Shown: positions 2,529 through 28,030 of the stretch, piece after piece
How positions within the stretch are numbered: the stretch's first letter is position 1
How the letters are laid out: each line of letters opens with the position of its first letter
From: Natronospirales bacterium
GTDB lineage: Bacteria; Pseudomonadota; Gammaproteobacteria; Natronospirales; REEB76
NCBI GenBank assembly: GCA_021792635.1
Contig: JAJYUH010000004.1
Span: 97,342 to 161,341 of the forward strand
Reading direction: 5' to 3'
DNA: 64,000 nt
Program-made: the position numbers and the translations under genes
The notes under the pieces: model-generated
Seen by the model: the letters and a program-made list of their open reading frames with translations, nothing else
What the model was told of the DNA's origin: nothing
Databases searched by the model: none

Positions 2529-2601
2529 TGTCAACCTTACAATTTAAATTTGTCAACCTTAAGTTATAATATTGTCAACCTTTCAGAGTAAATTGTCAAC
2601 C
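2528..2601. promoter_or_regulatory. Four TTGTCAACC iterons between divergent IS genes
   Basis: TTGTCAACC occurs at 2528, 2550, 2572 and 2593, all in the same orientation. The spacing is 22, 22 and 21 bp, about two helical turns. The first copy overlaps the ATPase gene start and the last ends immediately before the transposase ATG at 2602. The regular phasing on one DNA face is typical of an operator array. The passenger HTH protein is the obvious candidate ligand (inference). Confidence 0.7.
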
Positions 2602-3450
2602 ATGAACCAGTTACCCCTACAACATCGCGCCCAAGTCCTCGGATGCCTCGTGGAAGGCAATTCCATCCGGGCCACCGTGCGGATGACAGGTGTGGCCAAG
2701 AACACCGTGGTTAAGCTCTTGGCGGACGTGGGGGAAGCCTGCCTCGCCTACCAGGACGAAGCCTTGCGTAACCTTCCCTGCAAGCGGCTCCAGTGCGATG
2801 AGATATGGTCCTTTTGCTATGCCAAGGAAAAGAACGTGCCGGAGGCCAAAAAGGGGCAGTTCGGCTATGGCGACGTGTGGACATGGACAGCGTTGTGTGC
2901 GGATACCAAGCTGGTGCCGTGCTGGATGCTTGGAACACGCGATGCGGATGCCGCCAAGGTGTTTATCAAGGACTTGGCCGGTCGGCTCACACACCACGTC
3001 CAACTGACAACCGACGGCCACAAGCCTTATCTGGAAGCGGTAGAAAACGCCTTCGGCGGCGAGATTGACTATGCCATGCTGGTCAAACTGTACGGGGCAA
3101 AAGCTCCCCCAAGAACCCGGAGCGCAAATACAGCCCTTATAAAGTTTGTCCGTGCCAAGGCCCACAAGATCACCGGGCAGCCGGATGCGAAAAGCGTTTC
3201 TACGTCCTATGTGGAGCGCCAAAACCTGACCATGCGCATGTCCATGCGCCGGTTCACACGCCTGACCAACGGCTTTTCAAAAAAGGTCGAAAATCTGGCC
3301 TTTGCCGTGGCCCTGCATTTCATGTATTACAACTTCGGGCGCATCCATGCCACGCTCAGAGTCACGCCCGCTATGGAAGCCGGGCTGTCTGACCATGTTT
3401 GGAGCTTGGAAGAAATTGCAGCTTTGACGGATACTCATGGTTCAAACTGA
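2602..3450 (+). CDS. IS1-like DDE transposase
   Basis: A 282-aa transposase from ATG 2602 ([20 protein letters not shown]). The N-terminal HTH ([20 protein letters not shown]) is the IS1-type insertion-sequence-binding domain. The catalytic core contains [14 protein letters not shown] (first Asp), [16 protein letters not shown] (second Asp) and [17 protein letters not shown] (Glu in the YVERxN motif). That is the pattern of single-frame IS1-like transposases, which lack the programmed frameshift of classical IS1. The gene is intact and ends 9 bp inside the right element boundary. It should excise or copy the element using the 18-bp ends. Confidence 0.9.
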
Positions 3451-15044: not shown

Positions 15045-15968
15045 GTGATTCAGATTGACGGCTTGAGCTTCCGCTATCCCCGGGGGGAGAACGACGCCAT
15101 CAGCAAGCTTTCGCTGCGCGTGCGACCGGGAAGCCTGTTCGGTCTGCTGGGACCGAATGGTTCGGGGAAGACCACCTTGATTTCGATTTTGACGGGACTG
15201 CTGCCCTCTCCGCCCGGGCGGGTGCAGATTGAGGGCAAGCCGCTGCCCGCCCGGCGCCCGGAAATCCAGTCATGCAGTGCGCTGGTGCCGCAGGACTATG
15301 CCTTTTATCCACGCCTGAGCGTCGCGGAAAACCTTGCGTTTTTCGCCGGTGCGCTCGCCATTCCGGCCGCAGATACCGGCGTTCGCATGCAAGAAGCCCT
15401 CTCGGTATCGGGTCTGGAACCTTTCCATGGCGCGCGCGCGGAAAGACTCTCCGGAGGTCTCAAACGCCGGCTGAATCTGGCCATCGGCTTGTTGAACCGT
15501 CCACGTCTGCTGTTTCTGGACGAACCCACGGTGGGCATTGATCCGCAGTCACGTCACTTTATTCTCGAAACCATCCGTCGCATCAACCGCCGGGGCGCCA
15601 CGGTGGTGTACACCTCGCACAATATGGAGGAAGTGGAATCGCTGTGCGATGAAATTGGCGTGCTGGACAATGGGCGGCTGCTGGTACAGGGAACCCTGGA
15701 GCAGTTGTTGGGGGGCAGTGAAAGCAAACAACTGGTGGTGGGACTCGCGTCCCCGCTCACCGCCGAACAGAGCAAAGCGCTGGCTGCCCGGCCCGGGCTG
15801 GAAATCGCGGGTTCCGAGTTGTGCGTTCCCTCATGCAGCGCAGCGGATTTTCACCGCCTCATGGCCCTGCTGGCAAATCACGGGATCGAGCCGAGCCGGG
15901 TGAAATACGGCTATGGAAACCTGGAGCAATTGTTTCTGCATCTGACCGGACACCGGCTGAGGGACTGA
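15045..15968 (+). CDS. ABC transporter ATP-binding protein (lipid-cluster exporter)
   Basis: A 307-aa DrrA/CcmA-like ATPase with Walker A LGPNGSGKTT, signature RLSGGLKRRLNLAIGL, Walker B LLFLDEPTVGIDP and switch His in YTSHNMEEVE. The extra C-terminal ~80 residues are typical of ATPases paired with ABC-2 permeases. GTG 15045 (VIQIDGLSF) has GGAG about 10 bp upstream. The frame is open to 14892, but that extension is unlike the family. It is 1 bp ahead of the permease gene and is the first gene of the plus-strand arm of the lipid cluster, so it probably exports the product. Confidence 0.92.
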   Translation: MIQIDGLSFRYPRGENDAISKLSLRVRPGSLFGLLGPNGSGKTTLISILTGLLPSPPGRVQIEGKPLPARRPEIQSCSALVPQDYAFYPRLSVAENLAFFAGALAIPAADTGVRMQEALSVSGLEPFHGARAERLSGGLKRRLNLAIGLLNRPRLLFLDEPTVGIDPQSRHFILETIRRINRRGATVVYTSHNMEEVESLCDEIGVLDNGRLLVQGTLEQLLGGSESKQLVVGLASPLTAEQSKALAARPGLEIAGSELCVPSCSAADFHRLMALLANHGIEPSRVKYGYGNLEQLFLHLTGHRLRD

Positions 15969-15969
15969 A

Positions 15970-17178
15970 ATGCGCACGCTGTACTCCCTCGTCAAAAAGG
16001 AATGGATCATGCTGCTGCGCGACTGGCATGCGCTGCTGCTGCTGTTCGTCATGCCCGCGGTATTCATTCTGGTCATGTCGCTCGCCTTGCAGAACAGCTT
16101 TGCCTCACAGCAGGCCGTGCATATCCGTTACTACCTGATCAATGAAGATCCGGGGCCGGTCAGCGCGGCGCTGACGCAACGGCTGCTCGCGGTGCCGGGA
16201 TTCAGCGCTTTGCCCGCACAGGCCCCGGTCGCGGCGCTGGCAACCCGGGTGCGCCGCGACCGGGCGCAGTTCCTGGTAGTGATCCCGCGCGGTTTCGGCC
16301 AGGCCCTGCTGCATGTCCATCCGCTGCCGGTGCGCATGCTGGCCGGACCGGGAGTCGAACCGGCGGTGTACAAGCTGTTTGAGGTTGCGTTGCGTAACGC
16401 CCTCGGCCGGATCTATGCGCAACGCGCGCTGGCGCGCCTGAGAAACCTGGCACCCGCTCCGGTTTCCGCCGCTGTTCCGGGCTTTGATTTCGATGCCGCA
16501 GACAAGCTGCTGCAAGCCGCATCGCTGTATCAGACGCACGGGCGGACGGAATTCCCCTCTTCGGTGCAGCAGAATGTGCCGGCGTGGCTGGTTTTCGCCA
16601 TGTTTTTCATCGCCATTCCGCTCTCCACCACCTGGATGCAGGAACGGCAGCAGGGCACCTATGCGCGGCTGCGCAGCATGGGGTTGAGCACACGCACGCT
16701 GCTGCTGGGCAAATTGCTGCCGTATCTCGGCATCAATCTCCTGCAGGTGATCCTGATGCTGCTCGTGGGACTCATCGTACTGCCCTGGCTCGGAGGCGAC
16801 CGGCTCACCCTGGGACACTCGCCGCCGGCCCTCGCCGTCATGGCACTGACGGTAAGTTTCGCATCCGTGACCTATGCCCTGCTGGTAGCGACTCTGGTTT
16901 CCACCGGCGAGCAGGCGACGATTTTCACCGGCGTGGCCAATCTGCTGATGGCGGCGCTGGGCGGAATCATGGTGCCGCGCTTCCTGATGCCGCCGCTCAT
17001 GCAGGCATTGAGTGCGTATTCCCCCATGGCCTGGGGGCTGGAGGGCTTTCTCGACGTGTTCCTGCGGCACGGCGGACTCAGGACGGTGGCGCCGGAAGCC
17101 TTGCGCCTGGTTGCGTTCGGTCTTGCCTGTCTGGCGCTGGCGGGTCTGCGGCCCGGCAGGCGGGAAGGAAAAGGATGA
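15970..17178 (+). CDS. ABC-2 type permease
   Basis: A 402-aa membrane protein. One N-terminal helix (~20-42) is followed by a large extracytoplasmic domain (~45-200) and then five or six C-terminal helices (from ~215), the YhhJ/ABC-2 layout. It ends in a basic tail, RPGRREGKG. It partners the preceding ATPase. Its stop overlaps the acyl carrier protein start, indicating translational coupling between exporter and biosynthetic genes. Confidence 0.9.
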   Translation: MRTLYSLVKKEWIMLLRDWHALLLLFVMPAVFILVMSLALQNSFASQQAVHIRYYLINEDPGPVSAALTQRLLAVPGFSALPAQAPVAALATRVRRDRAQFLVVIPRGFGQALLHVHPLPVRMLAGPGVEPAVYKLFEVALRNALGRIYAQRALARLRNLAPAPVSAAVPGFDFDAADKLLQAASLYQTHGRTEFPSSVQQNVPAWLVFAMFFIAIPLSTTWMQERQQGTYARLRSMGLSTRTLLLGKLLPYLGINLLQVILMLLVGLIVLPWLGGDRLTLGHSPPALAVMALTVSFASVTYALLVATLVSTGEQATIFTGVANLLMAALGGIMVPRFLMPPLMQALSAYSPMAWGLEGFLDVFLRHGGLRTVAPEALRLVAFGLACLALAGLRPGRREGKG

Positions 17179-17444
17179 TGAACCGGGAACAGCTCAAACT
17201 CGAACTCAAGCAGATGATTATCCGGGAATGTGAAAAGGACTTGCGCCCGGAGCAAATCCCGGATGACGCCGTACTCATCGGCAGCGAGGGCAGTCTGGCC
17301 CTGGATTCCCTGGACGCGCTGCAGATCGCGCTGGCGGTCAAACAGCAGTATGGCAAGCGCATTGACGGCAACAATCAGACGCGCGCCGCACTGACTTCCA
17401 TCAATACGCTCGCCGACTTTATCCTGCCGGACGGCGTACCCTGA
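17175..17444 (+). CDS. Acyl carrier protein
   Basis: An 89-aa ACP with the phosphopantetheine serine (Ser45) in LALDSLDALQIALAV, where the usual DSL motif is intact. It carries acyl intermediates for the two ketosynthase genes that follow. The sequence is unlike the housekeeping AcpP and closer to ACPs of aryl-polyene and other type II PKS-like clusters. ATG 17175 overlaps the permease stop. Confidence 0.92.
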   Translation: MMNREQLKLELKQMIIRECEKDLRPEQIPDDAVLIGSEGSLALDSLDALQIALAVKQQYGKRIDGNNQTRAALTSINTLADFILPDGVP

Positions 17445-17453
17445 AAATCATCC

Positions 17454-18605
17454 ATGGCAGGCGCGTACATTCGGGGTATGGGATTGAGCTGCGCGCTGGG
17501 CGAGGACGCGGCAAGCAGCGTGTCGGCCCTGCAGCGCCGGCAGATGCGCCCGGTGGCGTTGCGGCTGGAGGAATTCACCGAGCCGGTGCAGATGCCGTAT
17601 TACCGCATCCCGGATCGCGCGGAATTGTTTGATGCCGGACGGCTCGCACGTCTGCTGCCCCCGGCGGCCCGCGCCGCGGTGACCCAGGCCGGACTGACGC
17701 CCGGGGAAATCCGCCGGCTGCCGCTGTTCATCGGATCTTCCTGTTTTTCCATCGGCGTGTCTGAAGCGCGCTACGCCGCGGCGCTGGCGCAGCAACCGCA
17801 AACTGCGATACCCATGCCCCTGTGCGGCTATCAGGATATGGCCGTGGTCCTGCAACAGACGCTCGGTTGCCGGGGCGACACCTACACCTACAACACCGCC
17901 TGCACGGCATCGGCCAATGCGCTGCTGGGCGCGCTGCACATGATCGAACTGGGCTGGTACCGGCACGCCCTGGTGGTGGGCGCAGAGTTGGCCAATCGCA
18001 CCACGCTCGCGGGTTTCTCGGGCCTGCAGATCGTGGCAGACGCGCTGCGCCCTTTCGATGCGGCGCGCAAGGGCCTCGTGCTGGGCGAGGGCATCGGTGC
18101 GGTGGTGCTGTCGGCGGAAACGGATTCCACAAACCGCCTGCGGGTGCTCGGCGGCGCCAGCAATTGCGACACATGGAGCGTCACCACCGCCGACACCGGA
18201 GGCAAGTCCGTGGCGGCGGTATTGAGTCAGGCCCTGGAACAGACGCATCTGCAGCCGCGCCAGGTACGCGCCATCAAGGCGCATGGCACCGCCACGCCCG
18301 CGGGCGACACCGCCGAAGCCCTGGGGATGCGGCAGGTGTTTGCCGGTGTGCCGCCGCTGTCGGTGCTCAAACCCTGTCTCGGACACACGTTGGGCGCATG
18401 CGGGATCAACGAACTGATCCTGTTCGCCGGCGCGCTGCAACGCGGCTTCCTGCCCGCCACGCCCGGATTTGCAACACCCGATCCCGCACTCGGCGTGCAG
18501 CCGATCACCGCGCCGGAGCCGGCGCCGGACGGCCACTATCTGCTCAACCATTTCGGGTTCGGCGGCAACAACACCGTGCTGGTACTGGAAAAGACCGCGC
18601 CATGA
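17454..18605 (+). CDS. Beta-ketoacyl-ACP synthase (FabB/F-like)
   Basis: A 383-aa type II ketosynthase. The active residues are Cys150 in YNTACTASANA, His277 in IKAHGTATPAGD, Lys306 and His311 in LKPCLGHTLGACG; GFGGNN near the C-terminus is also conserved. It is shorter than housekeeping FabF (~410) and divergent, like ketosynthases of secondary-lipid clusters. It performs decarboxylative elongation on ACP-bound substrates. It overlaps the next gene by 4 bp (ATGA). Confidence 0.92.
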   Translation: MAGAYIRGMGLSCALGEDAASSVSALQRRQMRPVALRLEEFTEPVQMPYYRIPDRAELFDAGRLARLLPPAARAAVTQAGLTPGEIRRLPLFIGSSCFSIGVSEARYAAALAQQPQTAIPMPLCGYQDMAVVLQQTLGCRGDTYTYNTACTASANALLGALHMIELGWYRHALVVGAELANRTTLAGFSGLQIVADALRPFDAARKGLVLGEGIGAVVLSAETDSTNRLRVLGGASNCDTWSVTTADTGGKSVAAVLSQALEQTHLQPRQVRAIKAHGTATPAGDTAEALGMRQVFAGVPPLSVLKPCLGHTLGACGINELILFAGALQRGFLPATPGFATPDPALGVQPITAPEPAPDGHYLLNHFGFGGNNTVLVLEKTAP

Positions 18606-19462
18606 TCCGGGCGATATCCGCCTGCGATTACCTGCAACCGGTGCCTGACGGCGCCGCGCTGCCGCCGCTGGAAGCGGCCCTGAAGGATTTGTGCCGGGAG
18701 CGATTTCGGCGCATTGACCGCTTCATCCAGTTGGCACTGCTCGGCTCCGCGCGCTGCGTGGCCGGCCGCACCCTGCGGCCGGATTGCGGCATTTATCTCG
18801 GCTCCGGTCTCGGACCCATCGGCAATAATATCGTCACCCAGCAGCAATTGATACGCGATGCGGAAATCCCCAAGCCGGTCAACTTCGTCAACACGCTGGG
18901 CAGCAGCGCCGGATTCTACGTCGCCAGAAATCTGGGCCTGCAGGGGCAGAATTTTTTCATTTCCCGGCGCGGAGCCAGCCTGCAAGCGGTGCTGAGCGCG
19001 GCCATCGCGGATCTGACATGCGGTGTCGTCGGGCAGGCTTTGCTGGGCGTGGTGGAGGAAGTGGCGCTGCCGCTCGCGGAGCATCGTCTGCGTCAGCACT
19101 TGCCCGGAGATCTGACGCTGGCCGAAGGCAGCCATTGGCTGCTGTTGCAGCCGGGTACCGGTGACTCCCGATCCCTGGAGCTGAAGCATTTCACCAAGTT
19201 TGCGGCGCTGGAGGATTTTCTGAAATCGGTGTGGCGCACGGGCGACCGGCTGTGTTGCGCCCGCAGCATGGAAGCGCGCGTGGCCGGAGCGTTGCGGCGG
19301 GATTTCGATGCCGGAGCCCGGCCGGACCCGGCTGCTGCATTTCACGACAGCCTGGAAGCGGCGTGGCTTGCGGCATTTGCCGCCAGCCCTGAGCCGGGGA
19401 CGCTATTTCTCGCGGACGGGAGCCCGGAACGCGGCTGGTCCTTGTTTTATCTCGGCGCGTAG
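18602..19462 (+). CDS. Ketosynthase-like protein without active-site Cys
   Basis: A 286-aa thiolase-fold protein coupled to the preceding ketosynthase. FVNTLGSSAGFYVARNLGL aligns with the nucleophile segment of ketosynthases, but Ser replaces Cys. The C-terminal half with the catalytic His residues is absent or unrecognisable. This is the pattern of chain-length-factor or KS-beta subunits, which pair with an active KS to set product length. ATG 18602 overlaps the ketosynthase stop. The 3' end overlaps the convergent BtrH-like gene by 60 bp. The CLF-like role is inference. Confidence 0.75.
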   Translation: MIRAISACDYLQPVPDGAALPPLEAALKDLCRERFRRIDRFIQLALLGSARCVAGRTLRPDCGIYLGSGLGPIGNNIVTQQQLIRDAEIPKPVNFVNTLGSSAGFYVARNLGLQGQNFFISRRGASLQAVLSAAIADLTCGVVGQALLGVVEEVALPLAEHRLRQHLPGDLTLAEGSHWLLLQPGTGDSRSLELKHFTKFAALEDFLKSVWRTGDRLCCARSMEARVAGALRRDFDAGARPDPAAAFHDSLEAAWLAAFAASPEPGTLFLADGSPERGWSLFYLGA

Positions 19463-20461
19463 CTGTTTATAGATGCTGCGTTCCCGCTGCGCGCAATGCA
19501 GCAAGGCATCGGCCAGCAGGCCGTAATCCAGCGGCATCCGCCCCTTGCACATTTTCGCGGCGTGCAGCGCGAAGCGCCGCCATGCGTCGCCCACCGCGGT
19601 CAGTTCATCCGCAATGACCGCGAGGCCGGGCTTGCCCAGCACGCCGGCGGCTTCCTGGAGGAAGGACGCGTACAGGAAACGGAAACCGGCGCCGCCGGTG
19701 CCGATTTCTTCCTGCATGCGCACCATGTGACCCAGCAGCAGCCTGTTGTAATGCTCCTCGCGCGGGTCCAGACGGCGTATTTTGCGTGATACCAGGCGGA
19801 TGCCGCGCACACCCAATATCGGCACGGGCACGTGGAGCATCATGCCGGTGGTGTAGAGAATCGCCTTGCGGATGGCGCGCGGCAGATCCAGCCTGGGCGG
19901 AATGTATCGCGGATAGTAGAGCAGACCCCTGGGCGCCAGCACACCGCGCGTGAAGCGCGCCTTGCGCAGGGAATCCGCATCGCATTCCACCCGGATATCA
20001 ATCACCGGGTCGCTGATCAGGTAATGATTGCCGCGTTTTCCGTACACCACCAGATTGTGGGCGTTGAAATGAAAGCGCATATCCGGCGGAAAATAGGACA
20101 ACCAGAACGCCGACGTTTGCAGGCCGACCGCCCGGCCCCGGGACAGGTATTGATCGAGCGCCTGCATGCCGGCCGCCGGTTGCCGGAAGGTTTCAAAGTG
20201 CATCTCGATGCCGAGACGCCGGGTCAGGCCGCGGATGATGCTGCCGGGCGGCATGCGGTAAGCAAACAGCGGCAAGCCGCCGAATTTGATGAACGGCAGG
20301 TAGGCGAAGCCCAACCCGGCGGCGATGCCGAAGGCCATCGGCTCGGAAATCGGCATGTTTTGATGGCGCAGCAGGGACGAGATTACGCCGCTTTCACAAT
20401 GCGCACTTTGCCGGTGATCGAAGGGAATCTCGACCTCAAGCGGCAGGGAGGCGGCGTTCAC
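19403..20461 (-). CDS. BtrH_N/DUF4872 family acyltransferase-like protein
   Basis: A 352-aa protein of the butirosin BtrH type: N-terminal papain-like domain (~1-160) and C-terminal DUF4872-like domain. Cys22 in SAHCESGVISSLL, His135 in FNAHNLVVYG and Asp151 in LISDPVIDI form a plausible Cys-His-Asp triad. BtrH itself transfers an acyl group from an ACP to an amine, so this protein may off-load an ACP-bound chain onto an acceptor (inference). GTG 20461 overlaps the upstream stop (GTGA) and has GGAG 5 bp upstream. It is the last gene of the minus-strand arm. Confidence 0.8.
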   Translation of the reverse strand: MNAASLPLEVEIPFDHRQSAHCESGVISSLLRHQNMPISEPMAFGIAAGLGFAYLPFIKFGGLPLFAYRMPPGSIIRGLTRRLGIEMHFETFRQPAAGMQALDQYLSRGRAVGLQTSAFWLSYFPPDMRFHFNAHNLVVYGKRGNHYLISDPVIDIRVECDADSLRKARFTRGVLAPRGLLYYPRYIPPRLDLPRAIRKAILYTTGMMLHVPVPILGVRGIRLVSRKIRRLDPREEHYNRLLLGHMVRMQEEIGTGGAGFRFLYASFLQEAAGVLGKPGLAVIADELTAVGDAWRRFALHAAKMCKGRMPLDYGLLADALLHCAQRERSIYKQLRAEIKQGPAAFRAPVREK

Positions 20462-20862
20462 GGTTGCTCCGGAAGCGTGTCGAGCTGGGCGGGCGTCAAC
20501 CCCAGCGCCTCGGCATAACGCTGCCTGCGCCGGTCGGACAGCTTGGGGAACGCGCCGGGTCTGAGATGCCGGCGCACCCGCCATTTGCAGAAACCGGTGC
20601 TTTGCGCCAGCAGCACAAGATCCATGCGCCGGTGATACATGTGATATTCGAGCGCCGAACCACGGCCCTGCCGGGCGCGTTGCCAGGCGTCGGCGGCGCG
20701 GCGCTCGAACTCCGCTATGGCCTGATCCAGGACGATTTCCTCGGCTTCCCAGCCGCTGCAGGGCGTCGCCGCGTAGCGGCCGTGCTCATCCAGCGCGTAC
20801 AGCAGCTTGCTGTGGCCCAGGAACGCCCTGGCGCTCTGTTGCGGAACTTCGGTTTGCTTCAT
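20458..20862 (-). CDS. Unknown 134-aa protein of the lipid cluster
   Basis: No family recognised. MKQTEVPQQSARAFLGHSKL is followed by a helix-rich, charged sequence (EEIVLDQAIAEFERRAADAW, YHRRMDLVLLAQSTGF) and a terminal segment LSDRRRQRYAEALGLTPAQL. There is no signal peptide or membrane helix. It overlaps both neighbours by 4 bp (ATGA and GTGA), so it is made in step with DarB-like and BtrH-like proteins and probably acts with them. ATG 20862 is chosen because of the overlap; the frame is open to 20952. Confidence 0.75.
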   Translation of the reverse strand: MKQTEVPQQSARAFLGHSKLLYALDEHGRYAATPCSGWEAEEIVLDQAIAEFERRAADAWQRARQGRGSALEYHMYHRRMDLVLLAQSTGFCKWRVRRHLRPGAFPKLSDRRRQRYAEALGLTPAQLDTLPEQP

Positions 20863-22046
20863 GGGGGCGAAGACGGGGTCTTTCCGTCCGCACCGCAGAC
20901 GCGGAGGTACATCCAGGCGGTACTGAAACGGCCGCTCTCCGGAATGTAGCACAGCAGGCGGTGACCCGGTTGCAAACGGCCGGAATGGAACAGTTCCTCA
21001 AGCAGGACATAAATGGAAGCCGCGCCGATATTGCCCTTGGAATACAGGTTGGTGAACCAGCGTTCGAACGGCACATCGAAACCGGCCTTGCACATGTGCG
21101 CGTGGACTTTCTCGCGGAAATAATGCGAAGAATAATGCGGCAGGAAGAAATCAACGTCGCCGGGTTGCAGGCTCCGCAGTTGCGGTATTTCCCGCAGCGG
21201 CCGCTCGACGGTGTAGGCCATGATGTGCTCGTTGAGCTGCTTCACATCCTGCTTGAGCGTGAATATGGAACGCTCCGCCCATTCCGAGGGGTCGTACTCC
21301 GGCCAGCCTTTCAGGCTTCCGTCCTCCAGTTTTTCCGCGCCGCCATACATGCAGGCCGGTTGTTCGTTGGCATAGGAGCGCTCCACGATCCAGTCAATGC
21401 GCAGCGATAAACCCGCGGCGGCGGGTTGCGGTTCAATCAGCGCGGCACCCGCACCGTCGGACAGCATCCAGCGTATGAAGTCCTTCTGAAACGCCGTCAC
21501 CGCCTGTTTTTCCAGCGCCTCGATCTGCGCATCGCTCTCGGCCCGGAAATTCCTGGCATGCATCACCGCCGAAGGCATCTCCGAGCCGGCGCTCACCGCA
21601 TGCCGGAACTCGCCGCCGGCCACGCCGAGCATGGCATATTTGAGCGCCGTGGTACTGCTGATGCACACACCCGAAGTGGCCACAGTTTCGCAGGGCGGAA
21701 TGCCGAGTTCGCCATGCACCATGCTGGTGTGGCTGGGCACCAGTTGATCGGCAAAGGTGGTTCCGCAGGCGAGCAGATCAATCTGCTCCAGCCTGAAATC
21801 CGCGCGCGCCAGCCCGCGTATCGCGGCGGCAGTCAGTTGCGCGTTGCTGTGGGTGGCTTTGCCCGTGGCGGGATCAATGGCGTAGTAGCGTGTCTGGATG
21901 CCGTTGGAGCGCAGAATGATGCGCCGCGCGCGCGACGGACGGCCGTTGATCATGCCCAGCACCGATTCCATCGCCTCGTTGCTGACGGGAGCATTGGGCA
22001 GGAATGCGGAAAGATTGGTGATGTATGCCTTGCCTGTCACGCTCAC
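20859..22046 (-). CDS. DarB-like KAS III ketosynthase
   Basis: A 395-aa FabH-fold enzyme. Cys128 lies in VATSGVCISSTTAL, His304 in FFLPHYSSHYF and Asn339 in NLYSKGNIGAAS, the KAS III triad. The family resembles DarB of dialkylresorcinol synthesis, which joins two acyl chains head to head to form the ring precursor. It starts at GTG 22046, which overlaps the darA-like stop (GTGA). The substrate here is unknown. Assignment to the DarB group is from its arrangement with the DarA-like gene and overall sequence feel. Confidence 0.82.
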   Translation of the reverse strand: MSVTGKAYITNLSAFLPNAPVSNEAMESVLGMINGRPSRARRIILRSNGIQTRYYAIDPATGKATHSNAQLTAAAIRGLARADFRLEQIDLLACGTTFADQLVPSHTSMVHGELGIPPCETVATSGVCISSTTALKYAMLGVAGGEFRHAVSAGSEMPSAVMHARNFRAESDAQIEALEKQAVTAFQKDFIRWMLSDGAGAALIEPQPAAAGLSLRIDWIVERSYANEQPACMYGGAEKLEDGSLKGWPEYDPSEWAERSIFTLKQDVKQLNEHIMAYTVERPLREIPQLRSLQPGDVDFFLPHYSSHYFREKVHAHMCKAGFDVPFERWFTNLYSKGNIGAASIYVLLEELFHSGRLQPGHRLLCYIPESGRFSTAWMYLRVCGADGKTPSSPP

Positions 22047-22975
22047 ATTCCGATTGAGTCACCCGAAGGTGCGCTGAAATAAGCCGTCTGGGCGGCGATG
22101 CGTTTGCGCAGCAGGGGCGCCGTCAGCGTCTTGAGCAGGGCGCTCAAGGGCAGCACCGTGACCAGCAGCGCGACCAGAAACACAAAATAGACGGCAACCA
22201 CGGGGCGGCGCGTCCAGGCGCCCTGGCGGCCCAGGGCGCGCAGCAGCGCCCCCCAGACAAGGAAGCTGCGCCGGGCCGCGCGTTCGGTGGCAATCAGGCG
22301 CGTATTCACCTTCACCGCACCGAGGTGGCGCAGCAGGGTCGTGTCGAGCGGGTGCGCCTCGTTCAGCACGCGCTCGATGCGCTCCCCGAAACGCCGGCAG
22401 CCTGAAATCTGCTCCGGCTTGACGCCGGCGCGGGGAATCCACCCGCCCAGCAGCGGGCCTTTCCTGCCGGTCAGCATCCAGATGGGCGTGGCGAGAAAAC
22501 TGCCCACGCTGCCGGCTTCGTCCACCAGCGCGACATTGCCCACCAGCCGCGCGCCGCAAGCGGCGAGCAGGCGCTTCACCTGCTCCTGGGCCATGAGCCA
22601 CATATCGCGGCAGGCGATGACGGTCACCACCGGCGTGTCCTGCAACAGCGCGCGCGCCGCCGCACTTTTTAGGAACGCGGTGACGGGCAGCGAGGGGGAC
22701 AGGAACCACACCTGATAGCCCAGGATCACCAGGTCAAAACGCTCACCGGGTGGGAGGGACAGGGGTTCCAGCTCCGGCGCGTCCAGATAGACCGCTTCCG
22801 GAAAAGTGTCAAAAAAACGCAAGAACGGCCAGGGGAATGGATACGCCTGCCTGGGACGCAGGGTTTCCACGCGCAGTTCGATCTGGCCGGAGTCAGCCAG
22901 CGGCGCGCAGAAATGCCGCAGCACCTCGCTGAGCTGACCGCTTTGGGAATACTGTATGACCAGAACCTTTTTCAT
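22043..22975 (-). CDS. DarA-like dialkylresorcinol-condensing protein
   Basis: A 310-aa protein. The N-terminus MKKVLVIQYSQSGQLSEVL is flavodoxin-like, with a phosphate-binding loop pattern (YSQSGQ). A long C-terminal hydrophobic helix (VVAVYFVFLVALLVTVLPL, ~265-285) suggests membrane attachment. Proteins of this form are annotated as dialkylresorcinol condensing enzyme DarA and are thought to aromatise the ring made by DarB. It is the first gene of the four-gene minus-strand operon; all four overlap by 4 bp. The reductase or aromatase chemistry is inferred from fold. Confidence 0.8.
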   Translation of the reverse strand: MKKVLVIQYSQSGQLSEVLRHFCAPLADSGQIELRVETLRPRQAYPFPWPFLRFFDTFPEAVYLDAPELEPLSLPPGERFDLVILGYQVWFLSPSLPVTAFLKSAAARALLQDTPVVTVIACRDMWLMAQEQVKRLLAACGARLVGNVALVDEAGSVGSFLATPIWMLTGRKGPLLGGWIPRAGVKPEQISGCRRFGERIERVLNEAHPLDTTLLRHLGAVKVNTRLIATERAARRSFLVWGALLRALGRQGAWTRRPVVAVYFVFLVALLVTVLPLSALLKTLTAPLLRKRIAAQTAYFSAPSGDSIGM

Positions 22976-27310: not shown

Positions 27311-27721
27311 TCAACGTGCCGGATTTGCCTTGACCAGAGACCAAAACCCTCTGGGGTCGGTAATCCGCAGCGTTGGCAAAGCGGGCAGTGTCAGCAGGTC
27401 TTTGTCCCCGGTGACCAACACGTCTGCCTTTGAGTCCAATGCTGAGGCCAGTATCCAAAGGTCGTCGGGGTCGCGTACTGAAATCTCGGGCGGGCTGGAT
27501 GGTCTGGGTGTCACTGGATAGCTACGCAGTAACTTCATAACTCCAGCAATAATGCGCTCCGGTAGGCCGAAGCGTCCACTCAGCACTTCTCGGAGTTCGC
27601 CGAGTACGGCTTCTCCGCACAGGAACTCATGCTCTGCCAACACCAGCCGGAAGAGGTCCCGACAAGCGCCTCGGGTAGCGAAAGCACTTACGAGCACGTT
27701 CGTGTCGAGGAAGACCCTCAC
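27311..27721 (-). CDS. PIN-domain toxin
   Basis: A 136-aa putative toxin component of the PIN family (TIGR00305-like). Acidic metal residues are visible in MRVFLDTNVLVSAF, in CGEAVLGELREVL and in SVRDPDDLWILASALDSKAD, followed by VTGDKDLLTL. Such proteins are endoribonucleases held inactive by the partner. It overlaps the antitoxin gene by 4 bp (ATGA), as expected for a type II module. The reading frame and all catalytic acids are intact, unlike the neighbouring genes. Confidence 0.9.
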   Translation of the reverse strand: MRVFLDTNVLVSAFATRGACRDLFRLVLAEHEFLCGEAVLGELREVLSGRFGLPERIIAGVMKLLRSYPVTPRPSSPPEISVRDPDDLWILASALDSKADVLVTGDKDLLTLPALPTLRITDPRGFWSLVKANPAR

Positions 27722-27933
27722 GAAATAACCTTAAAGACATCCTCATCTGTGAGATACCCAGCGGCCTCGGCAAATGGAGCCGTGCGCTGACGGAGGTGTT
27801 CAAAAGCCTGGACTGCGAGCTGACGGCGTAAGGCTTCGCGTACCACATCGCTACGGCTTCGGCCGCTCTCACGGCTTACGCGTGTCAACAGGCGTTCCAA
27901 ATCCTTGTCAAGCCGAATGGTGATCGTGTTCAT
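27718..27933 (-). CDS. Ribbon-helix-helix antitoxin
   Basis: A 71-aa CopG/RHH protein. MNTITIRLDKDLERLLTRVS is the beta strand and first helix, and GRSRSDVVREALRRQL the second helix. The C-terminal tail (EAAGYLTDEDVFKVIS) would bind the toxin. ATG 27933 is chosen because the upstream part of the frame does not fit the fold. It precedes and overlaps the PIN toxin gene. The pair is probably autoregulated through the RHH domain. Confidence 0.88.
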   Translation of the reverse strand: MNTITIRLDKDLERLLTRVSRESGRSRSDVVREALRRQLAVQAFEHLRQRTAPFAEAAGYLTDEDVFKVIS

Positions 27934-28030
27934 GTAAGACAGTGTAATACGACTGGCCGTGGGCCACAAGGTCTCCGCTATCGACTGGATCATCGGAGCG
28001 TCAGCCATGGTTGGGTGGCTTAGCCCGGGC

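Follow-up and report, generated by a model that had tools for sequence, protein, structure and literature searches.

The nine genes at positions 15045 to 22975 of the DNA analysed here (the window: 64,000 nucleotides of contig JAJYUH010000004.1, positions 97,342 to 161,341 of the forward strand, in the Natronospirales bacterium assembly GCA_021792635.1) are best explained as a dialkylresorcinol (DAR) cassette of the type found in Azoarcus sp. BH72. The cassette is likely one half of an arcuflavin- or flexirubin-type pathway, in which the papain-like protein DarH is predicted to join the two halves of the molecule, and we assign this reading a probability of about 0.7. The same set of annotated genes has been published for Azoarcus and tied there to arcuflavin, in the accessible text of PMC3949708, so the cluster is of a known kind, and the initial annotation's suggestion of an undescribed natural product is not supported. 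This is one more, well-conserved example of a cluster type already in print; what is new is that the coupling step is assigned specifically to DarH. The genes, all intact open reading frames (ORFs), are as follows:

15045..15968, plus strand: ABC transporter ATPase (DarF in the Azoarcus naming); Pfam ABC_tran 1.1e-28, drrA/NodI-like at scores under the cut-offs
15970..17178, plus strand: ABC-2 permease (DarI); ABC2_membrane_3 4.7e-33
17175..17444, plus strand: acyl carrier protein (ACP; DarC); weak family matches and position in other loci
17454..18605, plus strand: ketosynthase (KS; DarJ); Ketoacyl-synt N- and C-terminal domains, alignment to 1j3n
18602..19462, plus strand: KS-like partner, resembling a chain length factor (CLF), without active-site Cys (DarK)
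19403..20461, minus strand: DarH (DarE, azo0290, in Azoarcus), papain-like BtrH-related acyltransferase, GTG start; NCBIfam DarH
20458..20862, minus strand: DarG-family protein of 134 aa (DarD in Azoarcus); NCBIfam DarG_fam
20859..22046, minus strand: DarB ketosynthase; NCBIfam StlD/DarB, StlD alignment
22043..22975, minus strand: DarA-like protein (DAR-aromatase by its Azoarcus name); gene order, the same neighbour elsewhere, and Table 1 in the accessible text of PMC3949708

The two convergent arms and tight joints described in the initial annotation were recovered: five joints are 4-bp overlaps, including darJ-darK and one that requires the ACP to start at its first ATG, while ATPase and permease genes are separated by 1 bp and ACP and KS genes by 9 bp. 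There is also a tail-to-tail overlap of 60 bp between the arms (19403-19462), which had gone unmentioned.

DarH matches Pfam BtrH_N (2.3e-47) and DUF4872 (1.9e-51), and the NCBIfam model DarH, whose name itself labels the protein a BtrH-related acyltransferase, at 4.2e-138 and 460 bits (cut-off 300). Its structural model (pLDDT 83.7) resembles AziU2-U3 (Z 24.5), CtaG (23.5) and CcbD (20.4), with the next family at 13.4; these closest matches are acyltransferases from biosynthetic pathways, and proteases score far lower. By Pfam, NCBIfam and fold alike the protein thus lies inside the BtrH family, as had been claimed from the sequence, and not outside it. Cys22, His135 and Asp151 are invariant in 30 of 30 aligned sequences and, judged by their spacing, constitute a putative catalytic triad. 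The list of homologues comprised the best 120 of at least 7889, from 8000 candidates scored. A literature search for DUF4872 found nothing. Plasmid searches found no BtrH-like or DarB-like protein of 60% identity or more, only distant ones. One such BtrH-like protein, 25.5% identical in the listed rows, is carried by many Acinetobacter plasmids (hits H11-H20), which account for 45 of 55 matching plasmid records.

A search of genome records with the DarH alignment gave at least 577 confirmed loci on at least 595 stretches, and the best 80 were compared by tblastn with the nine window proteins; being picked by DarH, these loci are silent on clusters without it. Genes darA, darB and darG stand beside darH in 77 of the 80, and the ATPase-permease-ACP-KS set (F-I-C-J) is complete in 67. 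Every one of the 61 loci with sufficient flank on both sides has darA-B-G; the F-I-C-J set is complete in 53 of them, and 55 have three or more of its four genes. The layout is convergent in 32 of the 80 loci, with the KS-like partner detected in every one, and the record titles (some reading only 'Proteobacteria') place these in Gamma- and Alphaproteobacteria. It is collinear in 38, from Betaproteobacteria, desulfobacteria and Sulfurimonas relatives by their titles; here the partner was detected in 6, though a diverged partner could escape tblastn. The second arm is absent or partial in the other ten, of which L008, L011 and L021 are cut by a contig end and L007, L030, L050 and L059 have second-arm genes at the far side of darA. 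Since the set recurs in most of the 80 loci across these groups, the grouping is not due to chance, and the co-occurrence that the initial annotation had proposed as a check is strong.

DarH also travels with polyene genes. In a sample of 370 genomes of the class, DarH exceeded its cut-off in 18, with three weaker matches treated as negatives; the polyene KS model NF006618, for which up to four candidates per genome were scored, did so in 81. The polyene KS was found in 17 of the 18 DarH-positive genomes and in 64 of the 352 DarH-negative ones (Fisher p 2e-11, a guide only, as the genomes are related). The sole DarH-positive genome without it is the window's own, which is partly unreadable. 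Among 56 relatives, which overlap the class sample, the corresponding figures are 7 of 8 and 9 of 48. A wider set of 63 DarH-positive genomes, made up of 46 from the 80 loci and 17 class genomes, has the polyene KS over cut-off in 54 (37 of the 46 new genomes) and an ApeI-like dehydratase over cut-off in 45. As a separate observation, the best polyene-type KS matches in L036, L039, L041, L053 and L080, below the cut-off, lie in ORFs of 718-762 codons that are perhaps fusions.

In the congener G422 the cassette, as darA-B-G-H and a converging K-J-C-I-F, comes immediately after a polyene cluster and is 65-92% identical to the window. Ten G422 proteins were run against Pfam, giving for that polyene cluster an ACP, an AMP-binding enzyme, an ApeI-like dehydratase, a thioesterase, an MMPL exporter, two KSs and a glycosyltransferase with a lipid-A-type acyltransferase domain; a second ACP-like gene and a reductase-like gene were recognised by look. 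The congeners' polyene clusters hold a glycerolipid-acyltransferase-like gene as well. Further flank and polyene-locus genes were given names by look, among them FabV, MipA, mutY, yggX, egtB/egtD and a phosphopantetheinyl transferase. G037 has the same polyene cluster with the same terminal KS. Directly after it stands a gene related (53%) to the PIG-L gene found behind the cassette in G422, so the cassette site in G037 is empty. In G417 and G425 a polyene cluster is present, with no DarH match in the whole genome. The whole cassette is thus present or absent at one site among congeners, and the resorcinol half behaves as a module.

In the window's own genome the polyene locus of the congeners is represented by its left edge, in conserved order and 94.4% identical to G037 over 7,642 bp. 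It reaches as far as the C-terminal 281 residues (of 466) of a halogenase-like gene (94.7% identical), beyond which the sequence reads N, at the expected site of the polyene genes. The polyene half is likely to be present in this genome, unread, on a contig other than that of the DAR cassette. An 'orphan' resorcinol cluster without a polyene was dropped as an explanation, given the locus edge and the N stretch adjoining it. A small G417 gene near the polyene locus matches a contig end of the window's genome (79% over 88 aa), and another G417 neighbour gene matches inside a contig (82% over 86 aa). A search of the genome with the right-flank DNA gave nine short matches, read as paralogues, and both ends of its 30 contigs hold no polyene-cluster gene, only paralogues of common families.

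The best solved relative of DarB is StlD (5gk0; E 6.1e-136 over 380 residues), in agreement with the DarB-type ketosynthase first proposed, and Cys128, His304 and Asn339 are kept, identical to StlD in the alignment. The NCBIfam StlD/DarB subfamily model gives 5.1e-172 and 572 bits (cut-off 450) against 64 bits for fabH, so that a housekeeping FabH identity for this KAS III, the outcome against which the initial annotation had asked it to be checked, was rejected; the narrower model 'resorcinol_DarB' scores 484.5 bits, short of its cut-off of 550. The 134-aa protein, previously listed as unknown, belongs to the named NCBIfam family DarG_fam (8.9e-44, 149 bits, cut-off 70), with 114 bits against 'flexirubin_DarG', whose cut-off of 170 is not reached. 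DarA is so named because of gene order, the same neighbour in other loci (a gene 40-85% identical to it stands upstream of darB there) and Table 1 of PMC3949708. Of the elements of an Azoarcus-type dar cassette, the following are found together: an StlD/DarB with intact triad, DarG_fam, DarH, and the linked ATPase, permease, ACP, KS and partner.

Lone StlD/DarB-like ketosynthases occur on plasmids of Prevotella nigrescens (L238, hit H21; 43% to the window DarB) and Bacteroides ovatus (L239, H23; 40%), directly behind a TetR or helix-turn-helix regulator and with no other DAR gene annotated nearby; further Bacteroidales plasmid hits of this type are H22, where the match coincides with a TetR annotation, and H24. 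On a plasmid of Pseudoalteromonas sp. THAF3 (L240) a DarB-like ketosynthase (39%) is lined up with genes for an iron-containing redox enzyme and hypothetical proteins, possibly another small ketosynthase pathway.

In the plus arm, DarC falls below the cut-offs of NF006617 (3.8e-12, 46 bits, cut-off 70) and Pfam PP-binding (0.0011, 19.6 bits, cut-off 20.8); read by eye, it has an LDSLD motif with a Ser for phosphopantetheine, and an ACP 36-90% identical to it occupies the matching place in other loci. DarJ keeps Cys150, His277 and His311 in alignment to 1j3n. DarK has no Cys at the nucleophile position, where an Arg pair is invariant in 24 of 24 sequences. Its KS fold, lack of an active-site Cys and position adjoining a KS gene are those of the CLF of a polyene KS-CLF pair. 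Its relation to chain length factors comes from the fold search, in which the ishigamide CLF outscored other ketosynthase folds by 1 to 2 Z units, and not from the search of its homologue profile against PDB sequences, which gave weak FabF-type matches and one unrelated protein.

A pathway can be proposed from these assignments. In it, a cyclohexanedione would be formed by DarB through condensation of a beta-ketoacyl with an enoyl thioester, and DarA would aromatise it to the resorcinol; both steps are established in relatives, and are assigned here by homology for DarB and by position for DarA. The DarJ-DarK pair and DarC may provide one of the acyl partners or act as its gate. The polyene would come from a separate locus in this genome, the one whose edge is seen on another contig. 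DarH would then load the polyene acyl group from a carrier protein on its Cys22 and transfer it to a phenol hydroxyl of the resorcinol, and DarF-DarI would carry the product across the membrane. The product is predicted to be a dialkylresorcinol, a lipophilic ring molecule, joined to a coloured polyene, giving a membrane pigment. Fold, triad and co-occurrence together suggest that DarH esterifies the DAR with the polyene, and acylation of the resorcinol by a BtrH-type enzyme ahead of export, as suggested earlier, is plausible. We see even odds for a broader proposal: that DarH is the missing coupling enzyme of flexirubin and arcuflavin, BtrH-type and carrier-protein-dependent, forming an aryl ester rather than an amide, and that the 8-kb cassette enters and leaves polyene pathways in close relatives.

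Several observations weigh against the cassette being one half of such a pigment pathway with DarH as its joining enzyme. To our knowledge, the solved fold relatives CtaG, CcbD and AziU use amines, not phenols, as acceptors. No Pfam or NCBIfam model matches the DarA-like gene up to E 0.1. Of the 46 further DarH-positive genomes, nine lack a polyene KS over cut-off: four desulfobacterial genomes, L039 (titled Proteobacteria), two Sulfurimonas relatives, and L016 and L059 with split or partial hits. Searches of the window's own genome gave no match to an ApeI-like dehydratase and no polyene KS over cut-off, the three KS hits being, by the look of their neighbours, FabF-like, FabB-like and DarJ; a GT2-acyltransferase and an MMPL exporter were found as weak paralogues only. 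Within the window, DarJ was the only match to the polyene dehydratase and KS markers, below cut-off, and no polyene gene was seen in the ORF list. The absence of polyene genes is weak evidence, because the stretch after the locus edge reads N; if the genome searches see behind the N, the polyene core is truly missing.

A further point against DarH leads to the alternative that survives best. For flexirubin the ligase-like FlxW has been proposed for the joining step, in the accessible text of PMC3992019. It is possible, though we rate it clearly below the assignment to DarH, that the polyene-DAR ester is formed by such a ligase, by a polyene-cluster acyltransferase or by DarJ-DarK, and that DarH edits or hydrolyses a carrier-bound acyl group. 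The congeners' polyene clusters do contain the lipid-A-type acyltransferase domain and the glycerolipid-acyltransferase-like gene, and papain-like enzymes comprise both hydrolases and transferases (PMC10318531, as far as its accessible text goes). Yet in G037, G417 and G425 these acyltransferases occur without DAR genes, which argues for another acceptor there; ketosynthases aside, DarH is the sole acyltransferase-like protein of the conserved cassette; and its nearest folds are biosynthetic acyltransferases rather than proteases.

It is doubtful that the cassette makes and exports a DAR never joined to a polyene, with DarH using an ordinary fatty acid or another partner. Such a product would suit the lack of a polyene gene in the searches of the window's own assembly (it is doubtful whether these covered the N stretch), the position of the cassette away from polyene genes, and the nine DarH-positive genomes just described. 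Pseudomonas chlororaphis does produce free DAR (PMC6403133), and darA and darB of Chitinophaga pinensis alone gave DAR in a heterologous host (PMC3992019), both according to the accessible text. Against this stand the polyene KS in 17 of 18 DarH-positive class genomes, the exception being the partly unreadable genome of the window, and in 7 of 8 DarH-positive relatives, and the syntenic edge of a polyene locus in that same genome. The initial version, an undescribed product in which an amine would be acylated in the manner of butirosin, is very improbable: it has BtrH_N membership in its favour, but the gene set is published for arcuflavin and no cassette protein has a Pfam or NCBIfam match to an amine-forming enzyme.

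The coupling role of DarH was not found stated in the literature, as represented by open-licence papers, mostly listings. Pigments of the flexirubin and arcuflavin type occur in many bacteria, and in the accessible literature their joining enzyme is not settled; co-occurrence, conserved residues and fold now single out DarH, which makes the joining step directly testable.

The cassette lies among ordinary-looking neighbours, recognised by look: on its left are rapZ and a phosphomannomutase-like gene, on its right mannose-1-phosphate guanylyltransferase-like and sugar-transferase-like genes. Elsewhere in the window, an ORF at 2572-3450 (plus strand) resembles, by look only, part of an IS1-type transposase, and 27311-28008 (minus strand) holds a pair of PIN-domain toxin-like (136 aa) and ribbon-helix-helix antitoxin-like (96 aa) genes. 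A similar pair lies about 18 kb from the G037 polyene locus (60% over 64 aa and 74% over 74 aa), and a PilT/PHD pair lies inside the Azoarcus dar cluster (PMC3949708, accessible text).

Among known systems, the darABCSR cluster of P. chlororaphis shares darA, darB and darC by name and makes a free resorcinol, 2-hexyl-5-propylresorcinol, with darA-B-C and regulators only; the accessible text of PMC6403133 names neither a BtrH-like gene nor a KS pair nor an ABC transporter in it. This single example may hint that DarH is tied to esterification. DarK, like the partners in the KS-CLF pairs of aryl polyene (ApeO-ApeC, 6qsp) and ishigamide (6kxd) synthesis, is short, KS-like and Cys-free, but sequence identity is only 12-18%, the fold being closest to the ishigamide CLF, and DarJ-DarK, unlike those pairs, have no reductase or dehydratase alongside. 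With the papain-fold acyltransferases BtrH, CcbD, CtaG and AziU, DarH shares the fold, a Cys-His-Asp set of similar spacing and a carrier protein gene in the cassette; it differs in that their acceptors, so far as is known, are amines, whereas a phenol ester is predicted for DarH. The flexirubin pathway of C. pinensis and Flavobacterium johnsoniae likewise joins a DarA-DarB resorcinol to an aryl polyene through an ester, but its polyene is started from tyrosine (TAL) and FlxW is the joining enzyme proposed (PMC3992019, accessible text).

The closest system is the dar cluster of Azoarcus sp. BH72, whose genes are given in Table 1 of PMC3949708 (2014), again in its accessible text, as darK (hypothetical), darJ (KS), darC (ACP), darI (permease), PilT and PHD genes, darF (ATPase), darE (BtrH-like), darD (conserved hypothetical), darB and darA. 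The same nine functions are present by annotation, Azoarcus DarD corresponding by position to the 134-aa DarG_fam protein of the window, and in Azoarcus too the polyene loci lie outside the dar cluster. The PilT/PHD pair (darH and darG there, the names being used differently) is found within the Azoarcus cluster only, whose order is that of the collinear layout, whereas the arms in the window converge, and the polyene half is only partly readable in the window's genome. The accessible text assigns no role to the BtrH-like protein. Arcuflavin is described there as a xanthomonadin-like polyene linked to DAR 7, through an ester predicted from mass-spectral fragmentation, and DAR and polyene clusters are pointed out in other bacteria too.

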